Below are positions 6,924-63,313 of a DNA stretch of 64,000 bases, in pieces. The notes below the pieces were generated by a model. That model was not told the DNA's origin. It saw only the letters and a list, made by a program, of their open reading frames with translations, and did no database searches. Origin of the DNA: Saururus chinensis (lineage: Eukaryota > Streptophyta > Magnoliopsida > Piperales > Saururaceae); assembly GCA_035235625.1 (NCBI GenBank), contig CP141147.1:10963001-11027000 (forward strand), in the 5' to 3' direction. Each line of letters begins with the position of its first letter. Position 1 is the first letter of the stretch. The position numbers and the translations under genes were made by a program.

Positions 6924-6932
6924 TAATATTTA
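6924..6932 (+). repeat. left 9-bp target-site duplication of the MULE
   Basis: TAATATTTA directly precedes the left terminal inverted repeat and matches TAATATTCA at 15394-15402 in 8 of 9 positions. Confidence 0.88.
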
Positions 6933-6989
6933 GGGTTTTTTCCATATTGTCTTGCCGAAGAACACAATATTCCTTATTCCCTGGATTTT
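6933..6989 (+). repeat. left terminal inverted repeat of the MULE
   Basis: About 57 bp alignable in inverted orientation with 15338-15393, with roughly ten mismatches and a 1-bp length difference. It shares runs such as GTTTTTTCCATATTG and AAGAACACAA. Weaker similarity continues inward. Confidence 0.9.
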
Positions 6990-7740
6990 AAACACAAATA
7001 CCATATGACCTATTTATGAACAAAACTACCCTTAGGTTTCAAATAAACCAACTACCCAACATAATATAATAAATTAATGCTAGAATAGTGCGGCGTCGTT
7101 CCGGTGTGCTGGGATTCATCGGCGGCCAACGAAAGTTGCCAGTGGGAGGTGATCGGCAATGACTCCCAGACAAGATTTGTTGTTCATAAAAAAAACTATT
7201 TTTTGACACCACAGAAGTTGTTTGAGGTCTCCAAAGGCTTCATTTCACGGATTCAATCACCCTTTTACACCCATTATGGATAGGATTTGTATTTGCATAC
7301 ATTACAATGGAGAGGTAGGCAATGATGACATGTATATAGGTGGAAAGGCATTGTTGATGATCATTGATCCATTCGTGAGGTTTGGGAAGTTGTTGTTTCA
7401 AGTCAAAGCACAACTTGCCATCAATTGTATTGTGACTTTCACGTATTTAATTCCATCTTCCCAATCATCCATGATATATGAATTACAAGTCAATGAGGAC
7501 ATGCAATCAGTTTTCTCCATTCATAAGAAGGCAAATAAGGATGTGTTATAATTGTATGTCAAGATGAAAGAGCCCGACAACAATGACAAATAACCATCAG
7601 TAGAAAGGAACCAAACATCCAATAGAGCTAAATCACTTGTCGTAATGGCTTAGCCCAGCTATAATTTTGGATTGCAAATGGGATTCAATGATACATAGTT
7701 CACTTTTGAAACTATCAGGTAATGATGAACTTTTAGATAA

Positions 7741-8010
7741 TACGAGATTGCAATTTATCGTATACTCAAGAACACGATATCGAACATACCGTGTTAAGCT
7801 CAAAGCATATCGTGTGAAGCAAAAACGCGATTTATAATCTATCACATAAGTAATGATACGACATACACATGGGATATATCAATAATGATTTTCAGTGTAG
7901 ATGTAATAACACGACATGTATACCTATCATGTTAATGGTAATACGATATGAATTGTAAGCATGTAACCGAATACACGATGTCGAGTTATGTGACATTTTT
8001 ATTAACACAT
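7741..8010. repeat. 32-bp dyad repeat array 1 (between transposase coding parts)
   Basis: Degenerate tandem units containing TCGTGT-N8-ACACGA. The best unit is TCGTAT at 7758 and ACACGA at 7772, followed 11 bp later by CCGTGT (7789) and then TCGTGT (7810). Further decayed copies reach about 8000. No coding potential; probably an intron. Confidence 0.75.
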
Positions 8011-8821
8011 TAATATCCAATGTAGATTGGGAGAACAGAGAAATTTGCCCTCAACAAATCCATGACATTCTTCTTTCACCAATCCAATGACTACAAAAAT
8101 GTAATAGAATTCAATTAGAATGGATTAGAAGAACTGTCGCCAATGATGGGTGCGACAAGGACTTCATTTGATAACTATGAACCCCACAGCCCTTATAATT
8201 ACAACGGTGAAGAATTTGCAGAAATTTGGGGTGATGATCAGTTGAACGATAATGATATAGTTGGCATGGAAAGTATGTCTAACCATAAAGAATTCGTAAA
8301 CAGCGAGGTCCCTAGTAACTTTTACGTTGAGGCCGAGGCATAGTGGGAGATAGTTGATGATCTAAACCTGTTGGAACCAAATATTGCTGAAGGCTAGCTA
8401 ATGACTGGCAATTCGCAAGCAAAGGATTACCAAAAGCTCCTCGAATTGGGTTCACATTTTCTATGTCTGTTGCATTTCAAGAGGGTCTTGATTGACTTAG
8501 CAATAAAGTCAAATTTCACTTACCATGTTGTGGATAAAAACATGAATATATATGCAGCAAAGTGCTCCAATCATTCTTGTAATTGGTACATAAGGGCTTC
8601 AAATATAGGAGAGCATGTGACTATCAAGAGGTTAGAACCGAGCCATTCCTATGGAACCCAAAGGAAGTCAATTGACCATCCCCTAACATCGCACCTTTGG
8701 ATTGCAAGAAAATGTTATGGGTTGTTTAAATACTCAGTAGACATTACACCTAAGAGCATAGCAAGTTATATTTCAAAGAACTTGGGCATAACTGTGAGCT
8801 ACAAGAAATGTTGGCGCGTAG

Positions 8822-9078
8822 GTAAGGTCAACCTAGGAGACTCCTTGAAACATGTGTTCCATACCATGACATTTAAGTATGACGTATTATTAAGCACACG
8901 ATAAGAATACAACCACATTTTCTTATCACATGACTTAATTATAAATCATGTTGACATGAACACGATGATGAATTAGTTCTCGTTTATGATCTCATGCCTA
9001 CAAATGATGTCGTGTGATCAGGAACACGATGAATACACTTGTCATAAAACCTTTATTAAATTGTATTCGATCGTGCAG
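8822..9078 (+). other. intron of the MULE transposase made of 32-bp repeats
   Basis: The coding parts on each side join in phase: ...KKCWRVG ends at 8821 followed by GTAAGG, and the next part begins at 9079 after a pyrimidine-poor ...TCGTGCAG, giving W-R-V-G-K-A-L-T-D-L-I-D-G-D as in related transposases. The 257-bp intron is composed largely of the dyad repeat: ACACGA-like halves sit at 8864, 8896, 8928, 8960 and 9024, spaced by 32 bp or multiples of it. Confidence 0.78.
8850..9040. repeat. 32-bp dyad repeat array 2
   Basis: The clearest periodic stretch. Half-sites ACACGA/ACATGA begin at 8896, 8928, 8960 and 9024, and their partners ACGTAT, TCATGT and TCGTGT begin at 8882, 8946 and 9010, each with an 8-bp spacer. 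It lies entirely within the intron 8822-9078. Confidence 0.88.
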
Positions 9079-10004
9079 GTAAAGCACTAACTGATTTAAT
9101 AGATGGGGACCTAGACGAATCCTATCGCATACTTCATGCTTACGTAATTCAAATTGAATATATTAATCCAAGAAGTGTAGTTGTTCGAGTAAGATCATAT
9201 GATATTCCCAAACCTATAGGGGGGTATGATTTCAAAAGAGTATTTTGGATGTTTGTTCTTGTTGCTAGAGCTTTTAGAACAACATTGAGGCCGTTGCTAA
9301 TGGTAGATGCAACTTTCTTGAAGGGAAAGTATCCTGGACAGCTATTGGTAGCAGTTGCATTGGACGGGAACAATAATATGTTGTGCGTCGCATTTGCAGT
9401 GGTTGAAAACGAGTGTGAGAAAACATGGTGCTAGTTTCTTGAATTTCTTTGAAATCATCTATTTTCTTATCCTCCAGCCGAGTTGGATACAATTGTTTCT
9501 AATAGAATGAAGGGCTTTGCAAGTGCTATTAAGCAATTTTTCCATCTACACACCACAGATATTGCATCCGTCACACGGAAGCAAATATGTTGATAGATTC
9601 AAGGACAACTACCTAAAGAACAAACTCCATGTTGCAGCCAAAACTTTCTGACAGAACGTGTATGAAGGAAACAATGAATAGCATTAAAGAACATAATCCC
9701 GAAGCATTTTTGGCTAAATAAGATAGGCTCAGAGCACTAGGCCAATGTCACATTTCCAGGAAAAAGATATGGAACCCTCAGCTCAAACAAGTCTGAAAGT
9801 GCCAATGCAATGTTCAAAAAAATTGAGCATACAAGGGAGCACGCAACCGAATTATTTGATAATCGTCGCCAAAATATGATAGAAGATTTAACGCAATTTC
9901 CCCACAAACACATCAAAAACATGCGAGAAGAAGCAAGGAATGTGCATGTATTGCCTGTGTCAATGTATGAATTCTAGGTTAACTCACTATATCATCAGAC
10001 ACAT

Positions 10005-10160
10005 TACGTTTATATGTTGTCGTCCATATCGTGTGTACATGTATATGTTAAGTGTCCATATCGTGTAAGTGTGTTTGTTATACTTATACAATTGTATGGT
10101 TAACATTACGGGTCGTGTAATCAGTAACATGACATTGTTTATTTATCGTGATCTCATTCA
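10005..10160. repeat. 32-bp dyad repeat array 3
   Basis: Contains TCGTGT at about 10030, 10066 and 10113; the last is followed after exactly 8 bp by ACATGA (10127). It lies between the transposase core and the SWIM-finger remnant, where an intron is expected. Confidence 0.75.
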
Positions 10161-10739
10161 CATGATATGTAGTAAATAGGATGTTGTGAATCTCGTTGAA
10201 TGTAACCGCACATGTGGAAAATTTTAGCATCTGGGGCTACTGTGTAAACATGCAATCACAGCAATTCATCACACACTTCTATGTGTCTGACTACTACAAA
10301 AAATGGTACTCTACAAAAACAAATAAATTGACCTATCAAGAGCCAGTATACCCAACAAGAGATAGGCACCAGTTGGCACCGACTCAAGTTCTACCTACAT
10401 TCTGCCCATCTATCCTACTCAAGTAAAAAGGGCATCCATGAAAACATTGGATAGAGTAGCAACCAAAGGTCAAAGCCAAACAAAAATGGGAAGCATGCAG
10501 GCAGTTGGGTTAGAACCATAAATGATGTACCAGCGCACAAGGGGAACCTCCCAATGTGGCAGATGTTCCAGCTACAAGCTGAAGGAGGGTGAAGAAAAGA
10601 GTAGGAAAACCACGTAAGGAAGGGGAGCATAGATCAGGGTTGTCTTTTCCATGATGACATAGACATTGTACATTCATTGCCTTAGAAACGATTTCAGGAA
10701 CGTTTTGTATTTGCATCTTGTCATCAATAGCACGAACTA

Positions 10740-10960
10740 GTTAATAAACGTGTTGTCGAGAACACGATAGTTTGATTTTTTTTCTTTGTAAACACTCTAT
10801 ACTAAATATCTATTGTTTAATCGAAAAAATGCCCCGAGGGTTTGCGTGTAACCAATTACACGATAAGAACGAAATTTAACAAAATTTATTTTATATGCAA
10901 GACATGTCACCAATGACACGATATTGATAATGTCGTGTGATCGTAAACATGACAATGGCA
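10740..10960. repeat. 32-bp dyad repeat array 4
   Basis: Units: ACGTGT (10748)-N8-ACACGA (10762); isolated ACACGA at 10858; ACACGA (10916)-N11-TCGTGT (10933)-N8-ACATGA (10947). It lies just 3' of the transposase gene. Confidence 0.78.
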
Positions 10961-10974
10961 TGAAATAAACCACC

Positions 10975-11805
10975 CATTTATGAAGAGACACTCCAATTTA
11001 CGACGTCAACATTTCCCGAAGAGTCAATACAATTTACGGCGTATCAATCATAAATTCGAATCACCAATTCACAAGGAGTCATCTCCAATTTCCAATGCTT
11101 CAAATTCAAAATTGGCAAAATACAAAACTACAAGTTTACATGTTCGGGCTAAAGAAGACAATATGGAAACCCGGACCTACATATATAGGGAAAAAATTCC
11201 AAACCCCAGACCTACACGATATATGGAAACCCAGACCTCTAGTTCGGGTTGCCGAGCCTGTTGATTCGCTACCCTTGCAACCTTGCTATATATGGAAGTG
11301 ACCGCTGGAAATGCTTAAGCATAGCTACTTGGCCTGAAATGAGAGAAGGCGTACCCATGGGTGTGAACTTACAGAATTCCATGGGACTGCCTTCTCTCGG
11401 TTCCTACTTCCAGAAGTTTGTCAGGAAAAGTTCACCCATTGATCTTCAGTGCCGAGACGGAGCCATCGGGGCATTGCAATAGCGTTGGATGATGATTCAT
11501 CCCTCTTCAAAGGCGGTCCTCACTAGCCTCTAAAAGGGGCCAATTCATAGTTTGGCATTATATCAATGTCGAGAATGCTTCGTCGCATTTTACCTGATGA
11601 TTCAATAGTGTGTGGTCATAGAGACAGATGGTCTACTAATGTACTTCTTTCTTTCTTTGTTTTGTAATGTATCATTGCCGGCGACTAGATGTTTTGTTAT
11701 ACTTCGAATGTAATGGATCACCCTTTTGTAAAGGAATATATTAATAAATGATAAGTCTTTTTTCCCCAAGCAAAATTGTGTTCTAGAACTGTTTAGGACA
11801 AAATC
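10975..11805. other. MULE spacer between the two convergent genes, function unknown
   Basis: No family is recognised in 10980-11482. It contains two near-identical words, atatggaaaccc(g/a)gacct, at about 11162 and 11219, and short open stretches without known motifs. It could hold a 3' transposase tail or a captured fragment; nothing further can be supported. Confidence 0.35.
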
Positions 11806-11809
11806 ATCA

Positions 11810-12125
11810 TTATCGTGTTTCCAAGGACACGACAAATGTACATATCGTCTCATCGAATACACGACATCATCAACAGGTGTGTGTGTGTGTGTGTGTATTT
11901 ACACGATATCAATGATTATCGTGTAAACGATCAAATGACCTACACCCTTGCATTGTATTGCTTACAACAACACAGTAGTCAATATCATCTGATCGAATAC
12001 ACAACATCATCAACAGACATCTGTTTACTTACACGATGTCAACGAATATCGTGTGAATGATGAAACAACATAATATTGCTCGTGTTATTCCTTACACGAT
12101 GAAGTTCATTTCGAGTAGAGAATTA
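11810..12125. repeat. 32-bp dyad repeat array 5
   Basis: TCGTGT at 11813 and TCGTCT at 11845 are exactly 32 bp apart, each followed by N8 and ACACGA. ACACGA (11901)-N12-TCGTGT (11919), ACACGA (12031)-N12-TCGTGT (12049) and TCGTGT (12080)-N8-ACACGA (12094) follow. A short (GT)n run at 11878-11896 interrupts it. It lies between the 3' ends of the two convergent genes. Confidence 0.85.
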
Positions 12126-12308
12126 TAGGATATGAAATAAAAAAATAGTTATCAATTAATAAACTGTGTATTGTCAATAATAATTGAGTATTTACAATTT
12201 CTATATAGTATGTGTATAGAATGTCAAATGTATATTACCTAATTACAATTCATCTACATCTAGATCGAATTCCAAATCAATTCGGCCCGAAAGAATTATC
12301 TCAATGAT

Positions 12309-14393
12309 CTAAGGCCTGACCAAATTTGTGATATCTGTTTGGGTAAAATCAAGTTGAAGGACTCCTCCTGCCACCTTCGCTATGTAATACATGATGAACA
12401 CACCACAATCTTCATTGGTTTCTTGATACGGGCATTGGTTGATCTTCGTCATTGACCACTTCGTTGCACCCTTTATGCAAAGGACCCTCTCCATTTCATG
12501 GGCAACACGTTTCCTTATGTGGTCCACCTCTACAAAGTAGTGGCTGTGGTCACCCTTTAGTGGGTTGTACCACCTACCTCTTCTCCTTGCAGCAGACAAT
12601 AAGAAAAAGAAAGTGCCTAGTGATGTAGATCGGAATGAAACCTCTCTCCGTGTTAACATTTAGCCTACAGATCTTCAACTTGTTGAATCTCCATGTGGAA
12701 CACCATCTTCATTTCAAGATAGTTGTGTGGCACCAAAATGACTTCCTCCTTATCCCTCTGCTACTCAGCATGCTCTTCTACATCTATCACTTTGCAGACA
12801 CTCTCTAGTAGTTCCTGATCAACCGGAGGTGTATCCCATACAGTGGCACTACAATCGGCAACATTTGAGCCCACTGCCAATTGTGGTGGAGGTATAACTT
12901 TGCAGACACTCTCTAGTAGCTCCTAATCAACATGTGAAGCGTGTTATCCACTACTTTGGCTGTGGTGGAGGTATAACGTATGGGCCATGGACGGATGCCA
13001 CATAAACTTCATCCTTTGGCTTTGCCTTCCGATCCACACTCTCCATGCATCCTGACTTTGCTATCCTCTCTTCAATGTAGTTGCTAAAATTCTTTGGCCT
13101 CTTCGGCAATTGGAGTGATTCTGAGAATAATTTGTGAATTTGGCTTCAGACACATAAACACCTCCTCATGCCATTTCCTCATCCGGTGATGAGCTAGTAG
13201 CTTCTTCCTTATCTTTTCGTCGATTAGGTCAAGTTTTGCGGCCTTCTCCACGTCGTTCAACAGTTGGGTAAACTCGGGGCACCGCTTGCACCTCAGGCTA
13301 CATGAAGGACCACTAGGAGCCGAATAGAGGTATGCTAAAAAAACCATACCTAGTGGATAAGGCAAATCAAACTAGTTAGTAGTGTATGAATGTCACATAT
13401 GTCATGTTATGGATAACACGCTTCACTGCATCATCGTGTTATTGCTTACACTATATGCTATTATCGTGTAATGCAATATACACGATATAGTACTAAGTCA
13501 TCTTACCAATAACACATTATGTATCTTGCATGTTATACATCATGTTTTCGTACTCAAGATACAAATGATATCATGTGAGTAAGACGACGATATACATGAG
13601 TGTGATGAAACTATTGTGTCATTAGTACTACCCTAATTGAAGACGTCATGTTATTAATAAGACGAGATTTACCTAGATCATAAATGAAGCCCCAATGAGA
13701 ATTCCAGCAGAGACGGAGCGCTCGTCCTGTCTGCTCCTGATGTTTCAGTGCGCTAATGATATGCCTCGAATCAACATATCATGAATGGCCCCAGCCCAAT
13801 TGTACCTCCCCACAACTATCTAGTCATCTATGAAATCACACAGAGATGGGGATACAGATCTATTGCTCTGTGTGAATAACACTAGGACCCCATGTGTAAG
13901 ACAATCAACCGTGCTAAGTCCTTATCAGAGATAGTCTGTCTCTTGTCAGCCACTTCTTTCAACGTGTCTTCAATAACATTCTTCTCCAGTCGCTTCCCTA
14001 GGAAGAACTTTTTGAAGTATTGCCCCTTGCCTTCGGCAGCCTTCCCCTCGCCACTTTCCAATTTAAACGGGTTCCCTTTTCCACTCAAACCCCTGATCAT
14101 TGACACTTCATCCACAGTAAGGGGTAGTATTTTGACCCTAATGATGAACACTTCTTGTGAATCATCCCTGCACTCACCAATTAGAACATCTAGGAGCGGC
14201 CTGGAGATAATGATTAGCTCGCAATCATATACTAGGTAGAACCCAGTCTCCACCAAGATTGCCTTGCATCCTGATAGTGAATCAACAAGGTCTTTTGAAT
14301 GTCAAAGTCCAGCGGGAAAACTGTTCATTCCTAGCCCGGTCTTCCATAAATTCTCTTCTGCTTCTCTTCTGATGTCTTCACTGATTCAGCCAT
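12309..14393 (-). pseudogene. ULP1-like (C48) cysteine protease gene of the MULE, decayed
   Basis: Read on minus. A start at 14393 gives MAESVKTSEEKQKR, then after a frameshift a part ending at 13882 (LLDVLIGECRDDSQEVF, LPLTVDEVSMIRGLSGKGNP) resembles the N-terminal region of plant ULP-like MULE proteins. Next come VLFTQSNRSVSPSLCDFIDD and GRYNWAGAIHDMLIRGISLA near 13860-13740, a linker at 13365-13084, and the C-terminal catalytic part (12659-12309) with CPYQETNEDCGVFIMYYIAK. The last keeps the Gln and the catalytic Cys of the ULP1 family (Q-x5-D-C-G). ULP1 enzymes cleave SUMO from proteins; the role inside MULEs is unknown. Frameshifts and stops show it is dead. Array 6 probably marks an intron. 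Confidence 0.87.
13395..13670. repeat. 32-bp dyad repeat array 6 (inside the ULP1-like gene)
   Basis: TCATGT (13402) and TCGTGT (13434) are 32 bp apart, each with N8 then ACACGC/ACACTA. TTGTGT (13614) and TCATGT (13646) are again 32 bp apart. TCATGT (13571)-N8-CGACGA is another unit. The array separates two coding parts of the minus-strand gene, as an intron would. Confidence 0.85.
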
Positions 14394-14519
14394 TTGTTGT
14401 ATTATTCTAGCTTACAAAATTGGATATATATATATATATATCAACAATGGGTTGTTACCATAATCAATAGTTGTGTTGATTCACATTATATAACTAACTT
14501 GCTTATATATGTTAAGTTG

Positions 14520-14720
14520 ATATATGATGTTATGAGATACACGATATGATGCCTCTCAGACATGATAGCACAACACTTGAATGTCATGTGTCACTTGTCG
14601 TGTTATTAATGACATGTTATGTATGCAACGCATACACGATAAGATGGCATCTATATCGATTGTTGTATTATCGAACACATGATATATTAATTATCGTATA
14701 CTTGAAAACACGATAAGCTA
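14520..14720. repeat. 32-bp dyad repeat array 7 (upstream of the ULP1-like gene)
   Basis: TCGTGT (14598)-N8-ACATGT, TTGTAT (14663)-N8-ACATGA and TCGTAT (14694)-N8-ACACGA; the last two units are 31 bp apart. It lies just 5' of the minus-strand start codon at 14393, next to a short (TA)n run at 14424-14441. Confidence 0.82.
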
Positions 14721-15337
14721 CTGCGAAGACCTACTTTGTTTGTTCTATAACCCAAAATACCAAAAATCCTGCATATGAATATACAATGTAGATTTTGAAA
14801 AAGACCTTACCACGAAATTGATCCAAAATGGATTAACACCTGGATCGGCTAGTGATTTTCTCCAAAGTTCACTGCTTTACCCGGATTGTGTCAATACACT
14901 GTCTAACAGAATCTCGCTTCATGGCCCAAAAATGCTTTGGGGCATAAATTTTCAAAATCACCTTTCAAAAGCAAGAAAAACGGAATTAACGCCAAAGGTT
15001 TTCACAATCTCCTTTCAGAAACAAGAAAAACCCAACTGTTCGAAAAACCGACTAGAGTTTTTTGAAATCGCCTGTTGGATGGGTTGGAAATCTAAACTCA
15101 CACTGCTATGTGAATGCTTTTCACTACTTCGAATGCCAAAATCGATGGTGAGATGAGTCGATAATTGAAACAAAGGCTTCTCACTAAGGAATCGCCAGTG
15201 TGTGAAGTCGTTTGCCTGTGAATGCAACTGTCTTAGGGTTTTACACGATATAAAACCCTAAACCCTGACCAGGGGTATTTCTATCAAAAAATTCCTATAT
15301 ATCGCATAAGTCCTAGTTTGATGGCATTTTTCTTGGG

Positions 15338-15393
15338 AAAACTAGGGAATATAGAATGTTGTGTTCTTTGGCCAGGCAATATGGAAAAAACTC
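15338..15393 (-). repeat. right terminal inverted repeat of the MULE
   Basis: Reverse complement of the left terminal repeat with about ten differences. Ends in ...GGAAAAAACTC, immediately followed by the target duplication. Confidence 0.9.
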
Positions 15394-15402
15394 TAATATT
15401 CA
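15394..15402 (+). repeat. right 9-bp target-site duplication of the MULE
   Basis: TAATATTCA directly follows the right terminal inverted repeat and pairs with TAATATTTA at 6924-6932. Confidence 0.88.
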
Positions 15403-18808: not shown

Positions 18809-19640
18809 GACTTTAAAGATGGTCACCTCAGAATTAGGGATGATTAAAAAGCTGAATGCTGATAATTACTTAGTGTGGAAGAGGAGGATACATCATATCC
18901 TCACCCTCTCTGATCTTACTCATATCATAGAGCAGGTCATTGAGCCACTACCAGAAAATTCTTCAGTTGGACAGAAGAAGGATTATGACAAACTGAAGGA
19001 TGATGACAACAAGGTTAGGTCTACCATTCTTACTTTCATGGAGCCTAAGATGGAAATGCTCTTTGAAAAGTAGAAGACTGCTAGAGAGATGCTGGAGGCT
19101 GTATCTGTGAGGTATGGGAGCATATTGAGGCTCATAAGAGGATGTTGCACTCTAAGTACCACAATTCCTGGATGGAGGGAGATTATGTGAATGAGCACGT
19201 GAGTGTTATGTCCATCATTACTGATGAACTAGAGACACTGAATGACCCCATCTATGAGGGAGTCCAAGTGTCTACTATGTTGAACAACCTCCCTTAGTCT
19301 TTAGAGAGTGTGGTGGTCTACCTCAACATAAGTAACTAAAAACTTACAATGGAGGCTCTGACTGCCAAGCTTAGGCTTGCGCAAGAAAGGAAGAACCATG
19401 TAAATGCTTCAGGTGCAGTCACTACCAACTTAGCACAAAGCTTTGGTGGAGGCAAGAAAGGTGGATAGGGGCCAAATCTTTTAAAGAAAAGAGCTTTAAG
19501 AAAAAGGGGAAGAAGCCTCAGAAAATGGGCAATGACAAGGGAAATAACAAACCCTAGGGTGCTTGCTTCAAGTGTGGCCAAGTGGGCCACTTCAAGGCTA
19601 ATTGTCCCCAAAATGATGACCAAACAAGCAACAACAACAA
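18809..19640 (+). pseudogene. copia gag with zinc knuckle, interrupted
   Basis: Begins MTLKMVTSELGMIKKLNADN, followed by YLVWKRRIHHIL, typical of the gag-polypeptide (UBN2) family. A stop at 19071 follows STILTFMEPK. Later pieces (QERKNHVNASG, a Lys/Gly-rich tail) continue in other frames. At about 19561-19608 the knuckle is intact as CFKCGQVGHFKANC, fitting CX2CX4HX4C, which would bind element RNA. Confidence 0.88.
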
Positions 19641-19689
19641 GGGCAAGAACAGGGAAATTGTGTGTGTTGTCTGAGAAGTGATGATAGCT

Positions 19690-20030
19690 GATATCAAGAA
19701 GAAGAGTTGGTGGCTGGATTCTTGAGCCATTGTACACATGTCTCATTCCAAGGGGTCTAGGGGTGAGATGATCAATCTTATGTCTGGCCAAAATAAAGTC
19801 TTCATGGGCAACAACACATATTGTGAGGTGGAGGCCATGGGGACCTACAGGATCCCTCGGAAGGAAGGGTCCACCCTGGTGCTTACTGATGTACTATTTG
19901 CTCCCTCCATCAAGAGGAATCTAATAATTCAACCCTGTTCTAACTAAAATGGGATTTGAAGTTAGATTCAAGGGGAGCAAAGCCACTGTGGCAAGGGTGG
20001 ATTTGTGATGTAAACTGCTTCTTTAGTAGA
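19690..20030 (+). pseudogene. copia protease remnant with stop in the active site
   Basis: WWLDS is followed directly by a TGA where the Gly of the D-S-G-A active-site motif should be, then A-I-V-H-M-S-H. The frame continues as SKGSRGEMINLMSGQNKVFM and FMGNNTYCEVEAMG. The catalytic Asp is present but the protein is truncated at the catalytic loop. Copy 1 lost the Asp instead. Confidence 0.85.
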
Positions 20031-20043
20031 TGGTCTTTATGGT

Positions 20044-20640
20044 TTGGATGTAATGGACTCTCTTGATTCTAATGAAATAAGCTATTTTAAGTATCTTATA
20101 TTGTCTATGGATGATGCCCTGTCGTGGCATATGCATTTGTGTCATGTGAATGTAGACAATTTACATAGGATGTCGAACATGGGGTTGTTACCCAAAATAT
20201 CCAAAGACCTATGTGTGTGTGAGGATTGCTTATCAGGAAAGATGAGCAAGCAATCCTTCCAAAAGGGACAAAGGGCAAATGAACTGTTAGGGGTAGTTCA
20301 TTCTAATATCTATGGGCCCTTAAATGTTCACACCAAGAGAGAGATGACATACTTCATCACATTTATTGATGACTATTCTATATATGGGTACATGTATCTA
20401 ATAAACAAGAAGTCTGATGACTTAGATAAATTTAAGGAATTTATAGCTGAGATAGAGACCTAGTTAGGCAGGAAATAAAAATCTCGAGGACTGACAGGTG
20501 TGGTCAGTACACCTCTGACATGTTTAAGGATTTCTGTACCGATCAGGGAATAGTTCATCAATACACCCTACCATACACTCCACAACAAAATGGAGTGGCT
20601 GAAAGGCGTAATAGGAAGTTATGGGCATGGTAAGGTTTAT
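20044..20640 (+). pseudogene. copia GAG-pre-integrase and integrase, interrupted
   Basis: The open part 20044-20463 holds the zinc-binding region (LSWHMHLCHVN ... VCEDCLSGK) with its His and Cys residues kept, then HSNIYGPLN, where the first catalytic Asp of HSD is Asn. A stop follows EIET. The rest reads on with frameshifts: RTDRCGQYTS-like residues near 20495 and QQNGVAERRNRK near 20584. Integrase activity is lost. Confidence 0.86.
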
Positions 20641-21079
20641 GTTAAATCACTCTGAGTTAGGAACCAACTTCTAGGGTGAGGCTTTAGACACCACCATGTA
20701 CATCCTTAATCGTGTACTGACAAAGGTAGTCCAATGAACACCTTATGAATTATGGACGGGTCGATGTCCGAACTTAAGGCATCTTAGAGTGTGGGGGTCC
20801 AGAGCACACATAAAGGTGTCTGACCAACATAGGTCAAAGTTGGACCCTAAGACCATGAAGTGTAACTTTATTATTTATTGTGACCACTCTATGGGGTTCA
20901 GATTTCTTGTTCACCACACAGATGGGACAGTGAGGGTAATTGTGTTTTTGAGACACTTATTTCTTAGAGGAAGAATTAAACCCAAGAATACCTAACGAAA
21001 TAGTAGACTTGTTCGAGATTGTATAGGAGGCTGGTCCTAGCACTTTCATAGAGGAAGTAATTGGATCAGGTCAAAACCA

Positions 21080-22018
21080 AACCAAATAGGAACCCAGGGC
21101 ATTCAGGGACAAAAAACCTTCAACACAACTGAGAGACTTCTATACAATGCTAGAAGAGGCCAAATGGTTCACCCAGGTGTATGGGTCAATAGATAAGTAC
21201 AAAGCGAGATTAGTGGCCAAATGGTTCACCCAAGTGTATGGGAAGGTCTTTAAAAACACATATTCTCATGTGTCAAGATTTGACTCAATTAGATGTCTCT
21301 TCGCATGCATTGCTTAATTTGATTTAAAGCTACACCAGATGGATGTAAAGATTGCCATCATAAATGAAGATTTAGAGGAGGAGATTTAATGGAACAACCT
21401 CAGGGTTTTGTGGTTCTTGAAGAGGAACACAAGGTGTGCAAGCTGATAAAATCATTATATGGCCTAAAACAATCTCCAAGGCAATGGTACTTCACTTTTT
21501 ACAAGGTGATTAGTAAGTATGGGTTCATAGTGAACGATCACAATCACAATGTCTATACCTTCCGGGATGGGGCTAGGTATATGATATTGTCATTGTATAT
21601 AGACGACATACCCTTGATGAGGAATGACTTAAGTATGATTGTCAGTTTAAAGGAATGGCTCGAAACCAAGTTTGAGATGAAAGACGTGGGTGGGGCATCC
21701 TACATCCTTGGGATGAAGATTGACATAGATAGAAAGGCTAGAAAACTTAGTGTATATCGAGAATCATATATAGAGAGCATTCTCAAACTCTTCAATGTCA
21801 TTGGTTGGAAAACCATTGAGTCCCCTATTTACAAGGGTACAATGTTGTCTAAGAGAATGGCTCCTCAGACTGAGGAAGATAGACTCCAGATAGAGTTAGT
21901 ATCATATGCACAGGCTATTGGCAGCTTAATGTATGACATGACCTGTACGAGGCCTGATTTGAGCTTTATGGTAGGCTTGCCGAGTCATTACAAACCAGAC
22001 CCTAGACTTCAACACTAG
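21080..22018 (+). pseudogene. copia reverse transcriptase, interrupted
   Basis: The upstream part near 21185 reads GSIDKYKARLVAKWFTQVYG, followed by SIRCLFACIA and KLHQMDVKIAI with stops between. The open part 21389-22018 contains MEQPQGFVV, KLIKSLYGLKQSPRQWY, the catalytic box SLYIDDIPL (Y-x-D-D), FEMKDVGGASYILGMKI and SYAQAIGSLMYDMTCTRPDL. It would copy element RNA into cDNA. The Y-x-D-D Asp residues are intact, but the domain is split by stops and a local sequence duplication. Confidence 0.9.
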
Positions 22019-36864: not shown

Positions 36865-38452
36865 CTTCATGCATTAGGTTGCCAGCGGTAGTTGCTCAAA
36901 ATTATGAAATTAAGCCAAATGTCATTCAAATGCTTCCATCTTTTTATGGACTAATAATGAAAACCCGTATAGGCACCTAGATGACTTCTTGGAAATATGC
37001 ACAACTTTTACGCTCTCAAATTTAACCGATGAAGCTGTTAAACTTCGCCTTTTCCCTTTCACATTGAAAGATAAGGCTAAGGAATGGCTTCACTCTTTAG
37101 AGCCAAACACCATCACAACTTGGGCCCAAATGCAACAAGAATTTCTTAAAAAGTACTTCCCTATAGGTAAGACCAACCAAATGAGAAAGGCCATAACCAC
37201 TTTTGCCCAACTTCCCACTGAGCAGTTCCATGAGAGTTGGGATAGACTTAAGGACCTTCTTAGGAGGTGTCCTCATCATGCTGTCCCTAAGTGGCAATTA
37301 GTGCAACGTTTTTATGAGGGTCTTACTGAACAAAATCGTCATCTTGTGGATGCAAGTTGTGGGGGTACCTTTTTGATAAAAAATGAAAATGAGGCATGGA
37401 AACTTTTTGTGGACTTGAGTGAAAATTCTCTTCAACATGCTGCGTTGAATAGAAATGAGAGTGGCCTATCTACCTTAAATAATGCCCCCTCTAGGGGTGG
37501 CTTGTATGAAGTCAAAAATCCATTAGACATCTCCTCTAAAGTTGATACTTTAAGTAGGAAGCTTGACCTCCTTATGACTTCAACACATCAGCCTACTCCC
37601 TTCACTCAAGATGCATGCACAATATGCCTTAGCCCAGCCCATACAATCATGGAGTGCCCCTCTGCCTCTCAATTTCCTGAGCTTGTCCAAGACCATGTGA
37701 ATGCTACCCAATCCTTCCATAGGGCTAAGAATAATCCATTTTCAAACACATATAACCCTGGGTGGAGGAATCATCCTAACTTTTCCTGGCGGGCACAAAA
37801 CGAAGGGGTTAAGGGTAACAAAGTTCCTATGCAACCATTCCAAGTCCCACCAACCCATATCCACCAACCTCAAGTCCAACATCCATATGTCCAACCCAAT
37901 AGGAGTCCAGGTTTTGAAGAAAAGGTCTTGAGTGCCCTGCAAGGCATTCAATCTCAATCCCAACTCCTCCACTCTCACACACAATCTATAGCAAAGTTAG
38001 AAGCCCAAATTGGACAACTAGCCAATGCTATCAATAAGAGAGAGATGAGGATGTTACAAAGTCAACCCATACAAAACCCTAAAGGTCAATTTCTGGTAGA
38101 GGGAGCTCCTCCCTCTAATGAACAAGTTAATTCCATAATGACCCTTACGAGTGGGAAGATAGTTGATAAGAGTGTTAGAGGGACACCAATGACAGATGAT
38201 AGGAGTGAGGAGTTAGAGAGGGCAGCCCCTAATGAGCCTCAAGTAGAAGTTAGTGTACCACATGAGAAGGAGTCAATCTCTCCTTCCCCTTCCTCAGAGC
38301 CACAGTCTAGGACCACTTCCGATGGATCTTATATCCCTAGGGCACCTTTTCCTCAATGTCTTGACATGGCCACACTATTTAGAAAGAGCACAGCTAAGAT
38401 GGATGATAATCTTGAGACTTTTAAACAAGTCAAAATTAATCTCCCCCTCTAA
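36865..38452 (+). pseudogene. gag of the TR-GAG-like element
   Basis: The open part 36989-38452 (487 residues) has the retrotransposon gag signature of Ty3/gypsy Athila/Tat-type elements: LRLFPFTLKDKAKEWLHSL, WAQMQQEFLKKYFP, then VQRFYEGLTEQNRHLVDASC and KLEAQIGQLANAI. A CX2C-type segment, CTICLSPAHTIMECP, is near residue 210. The N-terminal part (EIKPNVIQMLPSFYGLI, 36900-36945) lies in another frame; a frameshift near 36950 separates it from NENPYRHLDDFLEIC. It ends with ATLFRKSTAKMDDN before a stop where related proteins continue into the protease. Gag would build the particle and package the RNA; any movement would need enzymes supplied in trans. Confidence 0.9.
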
Positions 38453-43875: not shown

Positions 43876-45049
43876 AAAACTTTCTATCACAGCCCGGCGC
43901 CCGCTTGACCCAAGCCGAACCCTTTCCAAGGGCCGGTCAAAGCACACGGGGGTGACAAATTTGCATCGCGGAAGTCTTTAACCCCTTTAATTGGGTATTT
44001 AAACATACATGGAGTCATGCACCTCTAGTCCTTTGTGCAAGAGAAATAAGGTAAAATAAAAGAGAATAACAACTTTGAAATAAATCCTCAAACATAACCC
44101 ACATACTTAATATTCTGAGCCTAAATACAGGGCTCGAATAAAAAAATCTTAGATAAGTCTAAAAGTAGAAGACACGAACGAGTCCAAAACATAATCATCC
44201 ACACAAAGTGTTCAATGATCATAATAGCATAAATCAGAAAACAAAATAACATCCAGAAGCTTCCATGCCTAATCCCACACATATCCTGGTTGTCCCTCAT
44301 ACAGGGAATCCTGATCAACTATATGTCGTACCATGTAGCCCCAAAACAAAACATAGAAAGAGGGGTTAGTAAAATTCAGTAAGGTTTGAAATATGGTAAC
44401 ATTAATTAGAAAATAACCATGGCACATCCACATGGTAATTCAGATCCACATTTCTCTTATTAGTCCCATTTCTGATTAATTCCTTACCATACCCCTATTT
44501 AGCCATAAGTAATTATCCTGCATATAGGTATCCATACATATTAATCATGGTATGAATAACCACAGTACGGCATAAAATCCATCTTGCATAATAAGTGATT
44601 CTCACACAAATCACATCAAGCATAAACATCATATATAACCTATATGAATAGTTCTCTAGCACACATACAAATCCTGCGTAATAAACTGTAACAACCCGTT
44701 TTTCGGTTATGCTTAACCCGAGAGGGTTAAGGGTAATTCAGTAATTTGAGATTAATGTTAAGGGGTTTCATTAGATGAAATACCCATAGCCAGGTAGAGC
44801 TTGGCATAACGAGTGTAACGATTCGAAGAACGTGCGAAACGGAGGTCGGGACCGGAAGTTACGATCTCGACGAGCATAGAAAATAGGCGGGACCCACTTA
44901 GAAATAGTGTGATTTGCTACTTTAAGTGGGTTTATATTGAAGGGCTCGTTGATACGAGTCCAACGGTACCAAGAACGCGCAAATCCGATTCCGGGGTAGG
45001 GAGTTACGCGCGTTGGAAGATTAGGATTTTTATATAAAAACAAAGGGTA

Positions 45050-45295
45050 ACGGCGCGCGGCTGGCGCGCGCCGCAGCGCGAGCCGGCGCGCGACTAGGCG
45101 CGCCGCGGCGCAGGCCGACGCGGGCCGCGGAACCGCGGGCGCCGCGGTTCGTTTCCGCGGGCGCCGCGGTTACGCGGGCGCGACCCGCGTCGCGCGCGGG
45201 CGCGAACCGCGCCGCGCGCGGTTTTGCGCGGCTCCAGTGGGCGCCGCCGCCAGTTTCGGCGGCGCGGCGCCGTGGTTTCGGCGGCTCGGGGCTTA
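45050..45295. other. extremely GC- and CpG-rich block inside a solo LTR
   Basis: Dense CGCG, GCGCGC and CCGCGG words in an otherwise AT-rich region, with overlapping palindromes such as ccgcgggcgccgcgg near 45135. It lies directly upstream of the putative TATA box. Confidence 0.9.
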
Positions 45296-45984
45296 TTTAA
45301 ACCCCATTTTCCATTCATTTTTCACCCAGATTTTCTCTCACCCCCTTTCTGACCGTTCTGAAGCCGATTAAGGCCGTTCAAGACCCGTTTCCTACTAAAT
45401 CGAGCGTGCTCTACGCGATGGAGGGGTTCTTTCTTCGAGTCGGAGTCCATATAAGGAGGAAACGCCCCGAGACAAGGAGAGGTTCTGCCCGAGCACCGGC
45501 AAACTTCTTTCTCCCCGTTCTTAAGCATCTTAACTCCGATTTAGTCCATCCAAGAGGCGTTCTTGACTAAATCAAGTATGTTCTACGCGATGGAGAGGTC
45601 CGTTCTTTGATTCAACAACCGTATAAGGAAGAAATGCCCCAAGACAAGGAGAGGCTCCGCCCGTTATCCTCGAGCACCAAACAAGAAATATGGGCCCGAA
45701 GCAAGACGGGGTTCTGTCCAAAGTTGTCGGGCTACATCAAGAGAAGTAATCCAGAGTATGGGAGGTTCTGTCTGCCGTTCACGGCATAGAAAACGAGAAG
45801 AGTATCCGGCAAGGAAGACGTTATATGTAATCTTTCGACACAAGACGAAGAACATATGGAGACTCGAGGAAGCTTCTTTTATATCTTCGGATCTGAAGGG
45901 GAGGATGCTCATACGAGCAACTCCGAATACCGCTACCTTACGAATCATGAGGGCAGTAAGCATTTCTGATCTCCCGTCTTAATT

Positions 45985-46115
45985 ATGCCATGATGTGTGT
46001 CATACCATGATGCGTGCTATGCCATGATGCGTGTTTATATGTCATGATGTGTGCTATGCCATGATGTGAGCTTATATGCTATGATGAACGTTTATATGTT
46101 ATGAAGTGTGATGTC
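45985..46115. repeat. tandem repeat of atgccatgatg(t/c)gtg units
   Basis: Six to seven degenerate copies of roughly 15-28 bp spaced along the 3' part of the solo LTR (units near 45987, 46007, 46020, 46040, 46057, 46078). Confidence 0.8.
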
Positions 46116-61049: not shown

Positions 61050-61920
61050 CTAAGAGGCCCGCTTAGACGCCAGGCGTACAAGCTTCTTGTCCATCGTAAA
61101 CATTGAGCTAGACTCAATCTGCACAGAAATTGAAGGTCAGAGCAGAAGAAGTAATCCAACATCTAAGCATGAAAACAACAAATAGACTATATAGGCCAAC
61201 CTTCTCTAACAGTATGTCCCGTACTGGTTCCCCGTCATGCACGATTCCAGTCTTCTGAAGAGCCTTTAAGACAAGCTTTTCTAGTTTTTTAGTTTTCAAA
61301 ACACCATCTGGAGTCTGGTATTACCACACACATGCACAGAAACTAAAGCTGAGTCTACATGATCTGAAAACAGTGCATTTTATTAGAATAGAATAGATAA
61401 ACATACCGATTTTAATGCCCCTGCAATCAATTTCTTCCACTTTATCGTCCGCTCAATTTGAACTTCTTGTATTGTCGCATTTGTGCACATTTTTTTCTTC
61501 AACAAATTGTCAGACTCTACATCTTTTTGAGCTTGAATTACTTCACCATTGCACAAATCAGGCTTACAAGCATTTAGCTTCCTCTTTTTCATTGAGACAG
61601 TTTCTTCCATTGCTTCAGCATGAGATAAACTAGCATTTTTGGATGATACCCTATTTCCTTCAAGTTCCTCAGATTTTTCTAAATTTTTGCTTTCGCTAAT
61701 GTCTTCATTTACATGTACCTTTGTACCATATTTTTCTTCTTTAGCCATATCTCCATATAGATGGTCCTTTATAGACCCAATTTGATTTGAAGCAGAATCT
61801 TCTGCCTTACTAGAAAGTGGGTTCTTAGAAGCATGAAATGCACGGGCTTTTGCACGGTGTTTTTTGCCTTCCGCATGAAGCAACAGGGTCTGCTCGCTTG
61901 TAGTATTCAAATTACATAAA
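61050..61920 (-). CDS. LYAR-type / UBP1-associated-protein-1C-like zinc-finger protein, 3' exons
   Basis: Three exons join in frame on minus: 61920-61407 (acceptor TTTCAG, donor GTATGT), 61314-61201 (acceptor ACCAG, donor GTTGGC) and 61118-61050, ending in TAG. The first exon completes a C2H2 finger of the U1/matrin class (LCNLNTTSEQTLLLHAEGKK, followed by HRAKARAFHASK), then an acidic, Lys-rich linker with a basic KKRK stretch, a likely nuclear signal. The end of exon 1 and exons 2-3 form the conserved C-terminal domain of plant LYAR homologues: IKWKKLIAGALKS, TPDGVLKTKKLEKLVLKALQ, IESSSMFTMDKKLVRLASK. In animals LYAR is a nucleolar zinc-finger protein; plant function is less clear. No stops or shifts, so it is probably functional. 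N-terminal exons, with the LYAR-type finger, are not identified. Confidence 0.88.
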
Positions 61921-63313
61921 CTGAAAGAACAAGTGAAGTCTCATCAACATAAATGTACTTAAAAGTTGATTTCCTGTTTAGTAAGCTTTAATAATTCAGG
62001 CACCTACAAGCTACCATTTTTAGAAAATAACATTCCACTAATTTGTTACACCTTGTTCACAACAATATGGCAATCATGATTTAACTACTCTATTTATGGT
62101 TGTGGTAAAGTCAACTTCCACATCTACCCTTTTTAGATTGAGTAAAGAGAATCTACAATAACATTGTGTTCATAATTTTCTCTGGTTTGGGAAAAGTGGG
62201 GGTGGAGCATGGCCACTTATTGATCTTTTAAGAGTATTATAAGTTATTTTATACTTGTTGCTGCCTCATCATCACATAATTGTTATGATTTGTAAATTTT
62301 ACAAGACCACACAAAGAAAAACTCTAAAAACGGGAAGAAACTTAAAATACAAAAAAATAAAGTACAAGAAGGTATTTGCAAAAGTCAATTGTTCAAGGTT
62401 GGGAAAATGCATTTATTGCAACTAATGAGAACCCATTGAAATAATTCAATTAAAACAATATATAGGGGAATATGTGAAAAACAAAACCTTAAAAAGTTTA
62501 TGAAACTGAATACAGGAATATATAGGAAAGATTGATCGTCCTGGAATGACTTCTGATGCATAAATATTTTCCCATCATAGGTTAAGCATGTGTCTTCATA
62601 TGTAAATATCTTTCTAAATTAACTCACAGAGGCAAAGTATGCAGCCTTCATAGAAGAGCTATATTTGTACATACTATAAATAGTGGAGACTTATTATCCA
62701 AAATTTCCAATAAACTTTAAGGAAGCAAAATTCACATAAAACTACCTGGTACACCAAGTTCCAAAGAACACCATAACTTTAACATTTAGCCAGAATTAAT
62801 TTAAATTAGATCTGCACATTAAAATTATATCAGTCACTAGGGTGACAGACTTCGATAAAACTAATAAGATAAAAAGTGAAAAATAGAACAGAAAATTTAG
62901 CACAAGGCAGAGTATTTGTGCAATTAGTAAATGTATCAATGATAAGACAAGGAAAACATAGATAAGAATCTCGACATAAATCTCTTGCAAACACTACAGA
63001 ATTTGTATTTCTCATGACCATGTCAAAGAAGGCTTTGAATTGGGCCAAAAAGTAAATGATGTTAGGTAATCTGAGATAATTCCATCTCATGCAACCAAAA
63101 AATAACATAAAAAATGGTGGTGAGGTGTTATGGAAATACAGCTGGTACAAAAATCATAGGGACGAGAATTAAAAAAGGAAGAAGAGAGACATAGAGAAAT
63201 TTAAAACAACAGATGAAGAAAAGACAGGACAAAAGTTTGCACTTAGACTTATAAGTAGGGGTTTCATCCACCTTTACAATAATACATCCACCTAAAAGAA
63301 CCTCCACATATAG
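61921..63313. other. intron or 5' region of the LYAR-like gene
   Basis: AT-rich DNA without other recognisable coding sequence. The minus-strand open stretches at 62796-63150 show no known motif. Confidence 0.5.
62746..62774 (-). CDS. possible upstream exon of the LYAR-like gene
   Basis: On minus an ATG at 62774 gives MVFFGTWCT, then AG before a GT donor at 62745. The two leftover bases fit the phase of the exon starting at 61920, joining as W-C-T-S-L-C-N; plant relatives have W-F-C-S-L-C-N. The phase match is suggestive, but the first Cys is shifted by one residue and the upstream sequence is unknown, so this may be chance. Confidence 0.25.

Follow-up and report, generated by a model that had tools for sequence, protein, structure and literature searches.

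A decayed MULE with palindrome arrays in seven non-coding gaps, probably docking sites for a VANC-like protein of its own

Within the 64-kb stretch of plant DNA analysed here (hereafter the window), one Mutator-like element (MULE) of 8,461 bp, at positions 6933-15393, houses all copies of a short dyad, TCGTGT-N8-ACACGA. Allowing at most two mismatches in the 12 half-site bases, we found 25 matches in the 64 kb, all 25 in the element (7758-14713) and none in the remaining 55.5 kb, compared with a mean of 0.78 and a largest count of 3 in 100 shuffles of the window. Furthermore, the element keeps the remains of genes on both strands: a MULE transposase on the plus strand and, antisense to it, a DUF1985-like region together with an Ulp1 domain, which is the make-up of VANC and “Kaonashi” genes.

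The element is flanked by a 9-bp target-site duplication, TAATATTTA at 6924-6932 and TAATATTCA at 15394-15402, identical at 8 of 9 positions with one difference, and it ends in terminal inverted repeats (TIRs) of about 56 bp, at 6933-6988 on the plus strand and at 15338-15393 on the minus strand; both features agree with a MULE, although a few MULEs lack TIRs. An alignment of the TIRs that takes in part of the target duplication has 54 matches in 64 positions, and an ungapped comparison from the tip has 51 in 68. No second copy of the TIR tip (15-mer, at most two mismatches) was found elsewhere in the 64-kb window.

The plus-strand gene was identified as a MULE transposase by three domains found with joined pieces as the query, all above the Pfam cut-offs: DBD_Tnp_Mut (2.9e-8), MULE (2.7e-7, 44 of 99 profile positions) and SWIM (4.9e-5). 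The exon with DBD_Tnp_Mut spans 8401-8821; its start is uncertain and perhaps lies at ~8107, with in-frame stops there. Removal of intron 1 (8822-9078; AG/GTAAGG ... GTGCAG/GT) restores the frame, and the joined protein aligns over the junction to a MULE transposase of Vigna (P0001, 26% identity), the only relative found at E <= 0.01. The MULE domain (PF10551) starts in the exon or exons at 9079-9977, which contain frameshifts and stops, and a probable intron 2 (9978-10190, bounds approximate) precedes a frameshifted C-terminal exon (10191-10480) with the SWIM zinc finger (PF04434). Between this gene and the antisense gene, positions 10953-11780 hold short open reading frames (ORFs), of which two were scanned and gave no Pfam match; the segment could be the remnant of a third gene, comparable to vanB of VANDALs.

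On the minus strand, the 5′ part of the antisense gene is an exon at 13673-14393 with frameshifts and stops, in which a frame-joined query gives a weak match to DUF1985 (PF09331; E 2.8e-4) over profile positions 16-139 of 141. DUF1985 was not matched by the reversed sequence or by the two tested of nine shuffles made. A probable intron (13390-13672; donor AG/GTAAAT, acceptor not fixed) is followed by a middle exon without credible Pfam family (13084-13371), and the 3′ part carries the C-terminal catalytic domain of an Ulp1 protease (Peptidase_C48; 12309-12659; 1.3e-6, profile positions 114-200 of 217), which is above its Pfam cut-off and retains QETNEDCG. From their order and strand, we infer that the DUF1985-like and Ulp1 exons form one gene. 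Between the two parts lies a 39-bp direct repeat (92%, copies 108 bp apart, 12785-12931); VANC proteins have repeats in their variable regions (available text of PMC5735166). For a 139-aa antisense ORF, the structure prediction reached a mean pLDDT of 34.7 and was not used further. With stops and frameshifts in both genes, this copy of the MULE looks dead.

The excess of dyads over shuffled sequence, expected from a preliminary description of this DNA, was found at each stringency. In the element alone there are 3, 12, 25 and 34 matches at 0, <=1, <=2 and <=3 mismatches, compared with means of 0, 0.015, 0.23 and 2.91 in 200 shuffles of the element, and the two sets of shuffles rule out a chance origin. 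When the spacer was scanned from 0 to 30 bp in the element, 25 matches were obtained at 8 bp and no more than 5 at any other length (5 at spacer 10). All 19 copies of the sequence ACACGATA in the window lie inside the element. A weight matrix gives 38 sites of 13.1 to 27.8 bits, 37 of them in seven non-coding gaps, and outside the element it reaches 8 bits at four places only (9.0 to 10.1). Since the element also served to train the matrix, the resulting scores are not independent, and the main counts were redone with the 25 sites chosen by their half-sites. Among the 17 positions listed in the preliminary description, 15 match at <=2 mismatches and two (13571 and 14663) at 3; the trained model raises its count of at least a dozen instances to 38.

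These sites are distributed over seven arrays, A to G, of which A, D, E and G are annotated on the plus strand. Array A (7741-7991; dyads at 7758, 7842, 7895, 7927 and 7959) lies upstream of the transposase gene, array B (within 8822-9078; 8850, 8882, 8946 and 9010) in transposase intron 1, array C (within 9978-10190; 10029, 10113 and 10146) in the probable intron 2, and array D (10700-10970; 10716, 10748, 10844, 10902 and 10933) 3′ of the transposase gene. Array E (11790-12140; 11813, 11845, 11887, 11919, 11985, 12017, 12049, 12080 and 12111) is 3′ of the antisense gene, array F (within 13390-13672; 13402, 13434, 13464, 13498, 13540, 13571 and 13646) falls in its probable intron, and array G (14500-14720; 14525, 14598, 14663 and 14694) is upstream of it. 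Coding intervals contain 0 of the 25 dyads and 1 of the 38 model sites (expected 11.1 and 16.8), and with stricter ORF/domain intervals the same counts, 0 and 1, stand against expectations of 6.8 for the 25 and 10.4 for the 38, array and exon bounds having been drawn after the sites were seen. The sole coding site, at 9748 in the transposase exon or exons (15.3 bits), may be chance. Seven clusters, placed in introns and between genes, had been described before and are borne out by these counts. The same description left the terminal 800 bp on the left free of repeats, which is correct for the dyad (absent from the outer 825 bp on the left and 680 bp on the right); single half-sites do occur in these outer parts, ACACGATA at 15243 on the right and others in the two TIRs.

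The dyads largely follow a 32-bp step. In the reverse order, ACACGA..TCGTGT, the half-sites peak at a spacer of 12 bp (11 matches, runner-up 5), and the 20-bp dyad together with this spacer therefore makes a 32-bp unit. The 38-site set has 37 successive distances, of which 17 measure 30-34 bp, 4 measure 63-66 bp and one measures 96 bp; eight further distances below 200 bp (42, 42, 53, 58, 73, 75, 84 and 84) break the step. Among pairs of the 38 sites at most 300 bp apart, 34 of 93 deviate by at most 1 bp from a multiple of 32 (expected 9.4%), as do 16 of 38 pairs in the 25-site set. In the arrays, the identity at lag 32 (0.338) is the top of lags 5-139 (mean 0.277, z 3.4) with lag 64 second, and no such signal at lag 32 is seen in the rest of the element (z -0.2). 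Autocorrelation, one of the checks that had been proposed, recovers the period. A tandem-repeat search, also proposed, does not: within the element, Tandem Repeats Finder detects no row with a 32-bp period, and what comes nearest is a 30-bp repeat of 1.9 copies at 10022-10080.

The conserved unit is larger than the two half-sites and approaches a 24-bp palindrome, TATCGTGTTATCGATAACACGATA. Over the 38 sites, the commonest bases in columns -1 to 22 read TATCGTGTTATCAATAACACGATA, which becomes its own reverse complement when CG is put for the middle CA, and we infer that the middle CpG was the original state. At present it reads CG at 8 sites, CA, the commonest form, at 12, TG at 4 and TA at 8; the left CpG is CG at 19 and CA at 14 sites, and the right one CG at 22 and TG at 8, and the half-sites do not simply stay, as had been described. 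Likewise, the 8-bp spacer does vary, as stated earlier, but it is not free, with 3.48 bits of information over the 25 half-site-chosen sites versus a null mean of 0.73 and a maximum of 1.72 (2000 draws). Complementarity inside single sites is looser, at 8 to 13 of 25 for the four spacer pairs. Conservation is concentrated in the palindrome, and columns -5 to -2, 24 and 25 of the unit hold only 0.01-0.17 bits. That many site CpGs are now TG or CA would be expected if the copy became methylated once it had lost its protection. Changes in the half-sites are uneven, with 23 of the ACATGA type versus 7 of the ACACAA type (column counts), and part of the erosion may therefore be tolerated site variation rather than plain decay.

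Both TIRs carry at the same offset a half-site-like sequence, AAGAACACAAYATT, found as AAGAACACAATATT at 6958-6971 on the left and as the matching AAGAACACAACATT at 15355-15368 (minus strand) on the right, which links the TIR to the internal palindrome. This half-site was spotted after the fact; it scores 10.6 and 10.2 bits, and among 3000 random 64-mers taken from outside the element 0.17% and 0.77%, respectively, score at least as high. The outermost dyads of the element, 7755-7779 on the left and 14691-14715 on the right, are 88% alike as 25-mers. In the variable columns, likeness is 0.396 for units of the same cluster, 0.383 for units of different clusters and 0.376 for adjacent units. Recent array expansion is rejected as the source of the sites because proximity does not increase the likeness of units, and the repeated renewal of arrays proposed earlier is not supported, with the exception of one duplication of about 130-140 bp in array E (11812-11942 and 11952-12072). 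This equal likeness within and between arrays speaks for either old sites under selection or an element too old for recent expansion, two histories that one copy cannot separate.

Arrays of this kind, recognized by a VANC protein, are already known. VANDAL21 (Hiun) and VANDAL6 of Arabidopsis have motif arrays in their non-coding gaps that are bound by anti-silencing VANC proteins, which bear DUF1985, and VANC21 binds short motifs found at high density, often as tandem repeats, in introns, between genes and in the non-coding termini (available text of PMC5735166). The earlier statement that no described MULE has such a layout is therefore mistaken. With VANDAL21 and VANC21, the element shares the MULE type and a single motif that is dense in introns and in other non-coding DNA, intergenic and terminal, and it may also share the extra gene with DUF1985, to which the match here is weak; with the VANDAL group it shares 9-bp target duplications (table in PMC6446971). 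VANDALs have TIRs that are absent or short and degenerate, some clade members having TIRs (available text of PMC6446971), whereas here they measure about 56 bp. Some VANC genes, those of Kaonashi (KIU), bear Ulp1 and act on non-coding motifs of their own kind, with motif-dependent hypomethylation of cognate elements, and the Ulp1 capture has been dated to the separation of monocots and eudicots (available text of PMC13317346). Ulp1 in a VANC-like gene is probably shared with the element; KIU are non-TIR MULEs strongly conserved in eudicots (PMC13317346), whereas here a TIR element is found in a perhaps non-eudicot host. As TIRs are present, the element is not filed as a Kaonashi member. An origin in eudicots and a helical periodicity of the motifs are reportedly given in the abstract of Sasaki et al. 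2022 (EMBO J). The Ulp1 region is also shared with Ulp1-carrying MULEs of grapevine, melon and rice, and grapevine families have Ulp1 opposite to the transposase orientation, as here (figure legend in PMC2528002); for these MULEs, the available text of PMC2528002 describes no internal motif arrays and does not mention subterminal or tandem repeats.

Collectively, these results indicate that the locus is probably a degenerate two-gene MULE that worked like VANDAL/Kaonashi elements, with palindrome arrays that were docking sites for its own VANC-like protein. The preliminary description was right in seeing a binding-site-like dyad inside one MULE, and incomplete in that the element keeps remains of the gene type that binds such arrays. 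Under this hypothesis, the VANC-like protein, which would combine a DUF1985-like part with Ulp1 and be encoded on the strand opposite the transposase, would dock on the ~24-bp palindromes in the seven non-coding gaps and, by analogy with VANC21, would strip DNA methylation from the arrays and the remaining element, a loss that would keep the transposase and the VANC-like protein itself expressed. Exons presumably cannot bear such sites, which would restrict them to non-coding DNA, and after protection was lost the copy would have been methylated and its site CpGs would have decayed to TG or CA. The two-fold symmetry of the site suggests a symmetric dimer as the binder, and a step of 32 bp, about three helical turns, would place successive sites on the same face of the DNA. 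A further proposal, possible though doubtful, is that VANC-type anti-silencing is older than eudicots or extends outside them and acted here via a CpG-bearing palindrome, with a half-site in the TIRs, as a methylation-sensitive on/off switch. With a half-site built into the TIRs, one motif could serve both the ends and the arrays, and the CpGs of the site could make binding methylation-sensitive, so that the switch would read its own state.

Several observations weigh against docking by a VANC-like protein. The DUF1985 match scores 21.3 bits compared with a Pfam cut-off of 35.1, frames had to be joined for it, and a single uninterrupted antisense ORF gives an E value of only 0.11. DUF287, which is named for VANC proteins, was not found in Pfam scans of the ORFs and joined pieces of the element. 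In a search against 5.8 billion proteins, the antisense protein has 0 relatives at E <= 0.1 among 1280 candidates. With a sub-cut-off DUF1985, a frame-joined query and no such relatives, we therefore call the gene VANC-like and not VANC. Furthermore, past local hypomethylation has left no mark in array DNA: with dyads and half-sites masked, the observed/expected ratio of CpG in the arrays is 0.46 (8 CpGs in 656 bp), compared with 0.47 in coding and 0.57 in other non-coding DNA. A case for hypomethylation from CpG excess, based on a ratio of 0.89 with the dyads masked, was dropped when this ratio fell to 0.46 on masking the half-sites too. The VANDAL21 motif, YAGTATTAY, is 9 bp long and in one orientation, and no palindrome, symmetry, dimer or inverted repeat is mentioned in the available text of PMC5735166, whereas here the site is a ~24-bp palindrome, largely at a 32-bp step; VANDAL21 arrays change fast by tandem duplication (PMC5735166), whereas here adjacent units resemble each other no more than remote ones do. 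Lastly, the half-site AAGAACACAAYATT, at the same offset in both TIRs, would fit the transposase equally well as the binder.

It is indeed conceivable, though unlikely, that the dyads were bound by the transposase that the element encodes, as repeats of subterminal type shifted inward and serving synapsis or promoter self-regulation, with no role for the antisense protein. Maize MURA is said to bind a ~32-bp motif in the TIRs of Mu. TnpA of En/Spm is transposon-encoded, binds repeated motifs and counteracts methylation, much like the VANC-like system proposed here, but En/Spm belongs to the CACTA superfamily and its motifs are subterminal, near the ends. TnpA is an anti-silencing protein, and MURA and Spm TnpA are both listed among anti-silencing proteins of transposable elements (available text of PMC10706983). 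However, dyads are absent within 825 bp of the left and 680 bp of the right end, and sites in the introns of both genes and between genes are ill-suited to end synapsis. Moreover, the TIRs contain a half-site and not the palindrome, and, as mutual copies, they do not amount to two independent hits.

We consider it improbable that the arrays bind no protein and are neutral, minisatellite-like remnants that tandem duplication left in non-coding DNA. The 32-bp period, the one duplication of array E and the intolerance of exons to such insertions agree with this origin, whereas the concentration of conservation in the palindrome, the recurrence of one palindrome in seven separate gaps with its 8-bp spacer fixed (25 matches against <=5) and units of the same gap that are no more alike than those of different gaps argue against it. 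Sites for a host transcription factor, or promoter, enhancer or splicing elements acquired to drive the genes of the element, are very improbable, since, for all the arrays in introns and upstream of both genes, others lie 3′ of both, and ACACGATA and the dyads do not occur in the rest of the window.

Docking by a VANC-like protein would be of interest because there are few transposons that, as in the VANC system, specifically undo the silencing imposed on them by the host. A second target-site architecture (symmetric, CpG-bearing, with a 32-bp step and a TIR half-site) would make the origin and evolution of DNA recognition testable, and it would sit in a TIR-bearing MULE, perhaps outside eudicots. 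Its motif signature makes it possible to recognize such elements in plant genomes by their sequence alone. In a limited comparison with the literature, in which neither of two VANC papers mentions a palindrome, the palindromic shape of the site, the half-site in the TIRs and the probable lineage appear new, and our literature search found no paper pairing a magnoliid with VANDAL.

The lineage was assessed from one host gene of the window, UBP1-associated-protein-1C-like, present as pieces on the minus strand at 61117-61940, which points to a likely Piperales-like magnoliid host. In a 53-row tree, built from the window plus 52 rows hand-picked from the best 120 of 333 matches, the window and one further sequence group with three Aristolochia proteins (98/90), inside a 16-row set supported at 99/96. 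In the first tree of this protein, the 16-row set consists of the window together with the magnoliid and monocot rows, and the grouping with Aristolochia is supported at 0.946. Constraint tests placing the window with eudicots (p-AU 0.121) or with monocots (p-AU 0.211) rejected neither placement; the groups tested were named after the first tree, some rows being grouped by their place in it.

Elsewhere in the window, Rfam and tRNA scans gave 0 matches. ORFs at 19339-22015 and 36914-38449 resemble, by eye, pieces of a Copia polyprotein and a Gypsy-type gag. Tandem repeats of 22 and 32 bp, rich in G+C, are found at 45051-45221 in a mostly CpG-poor window, and the kilobase 45001-46000 has a CpG observed/expected ratio of 1.44.

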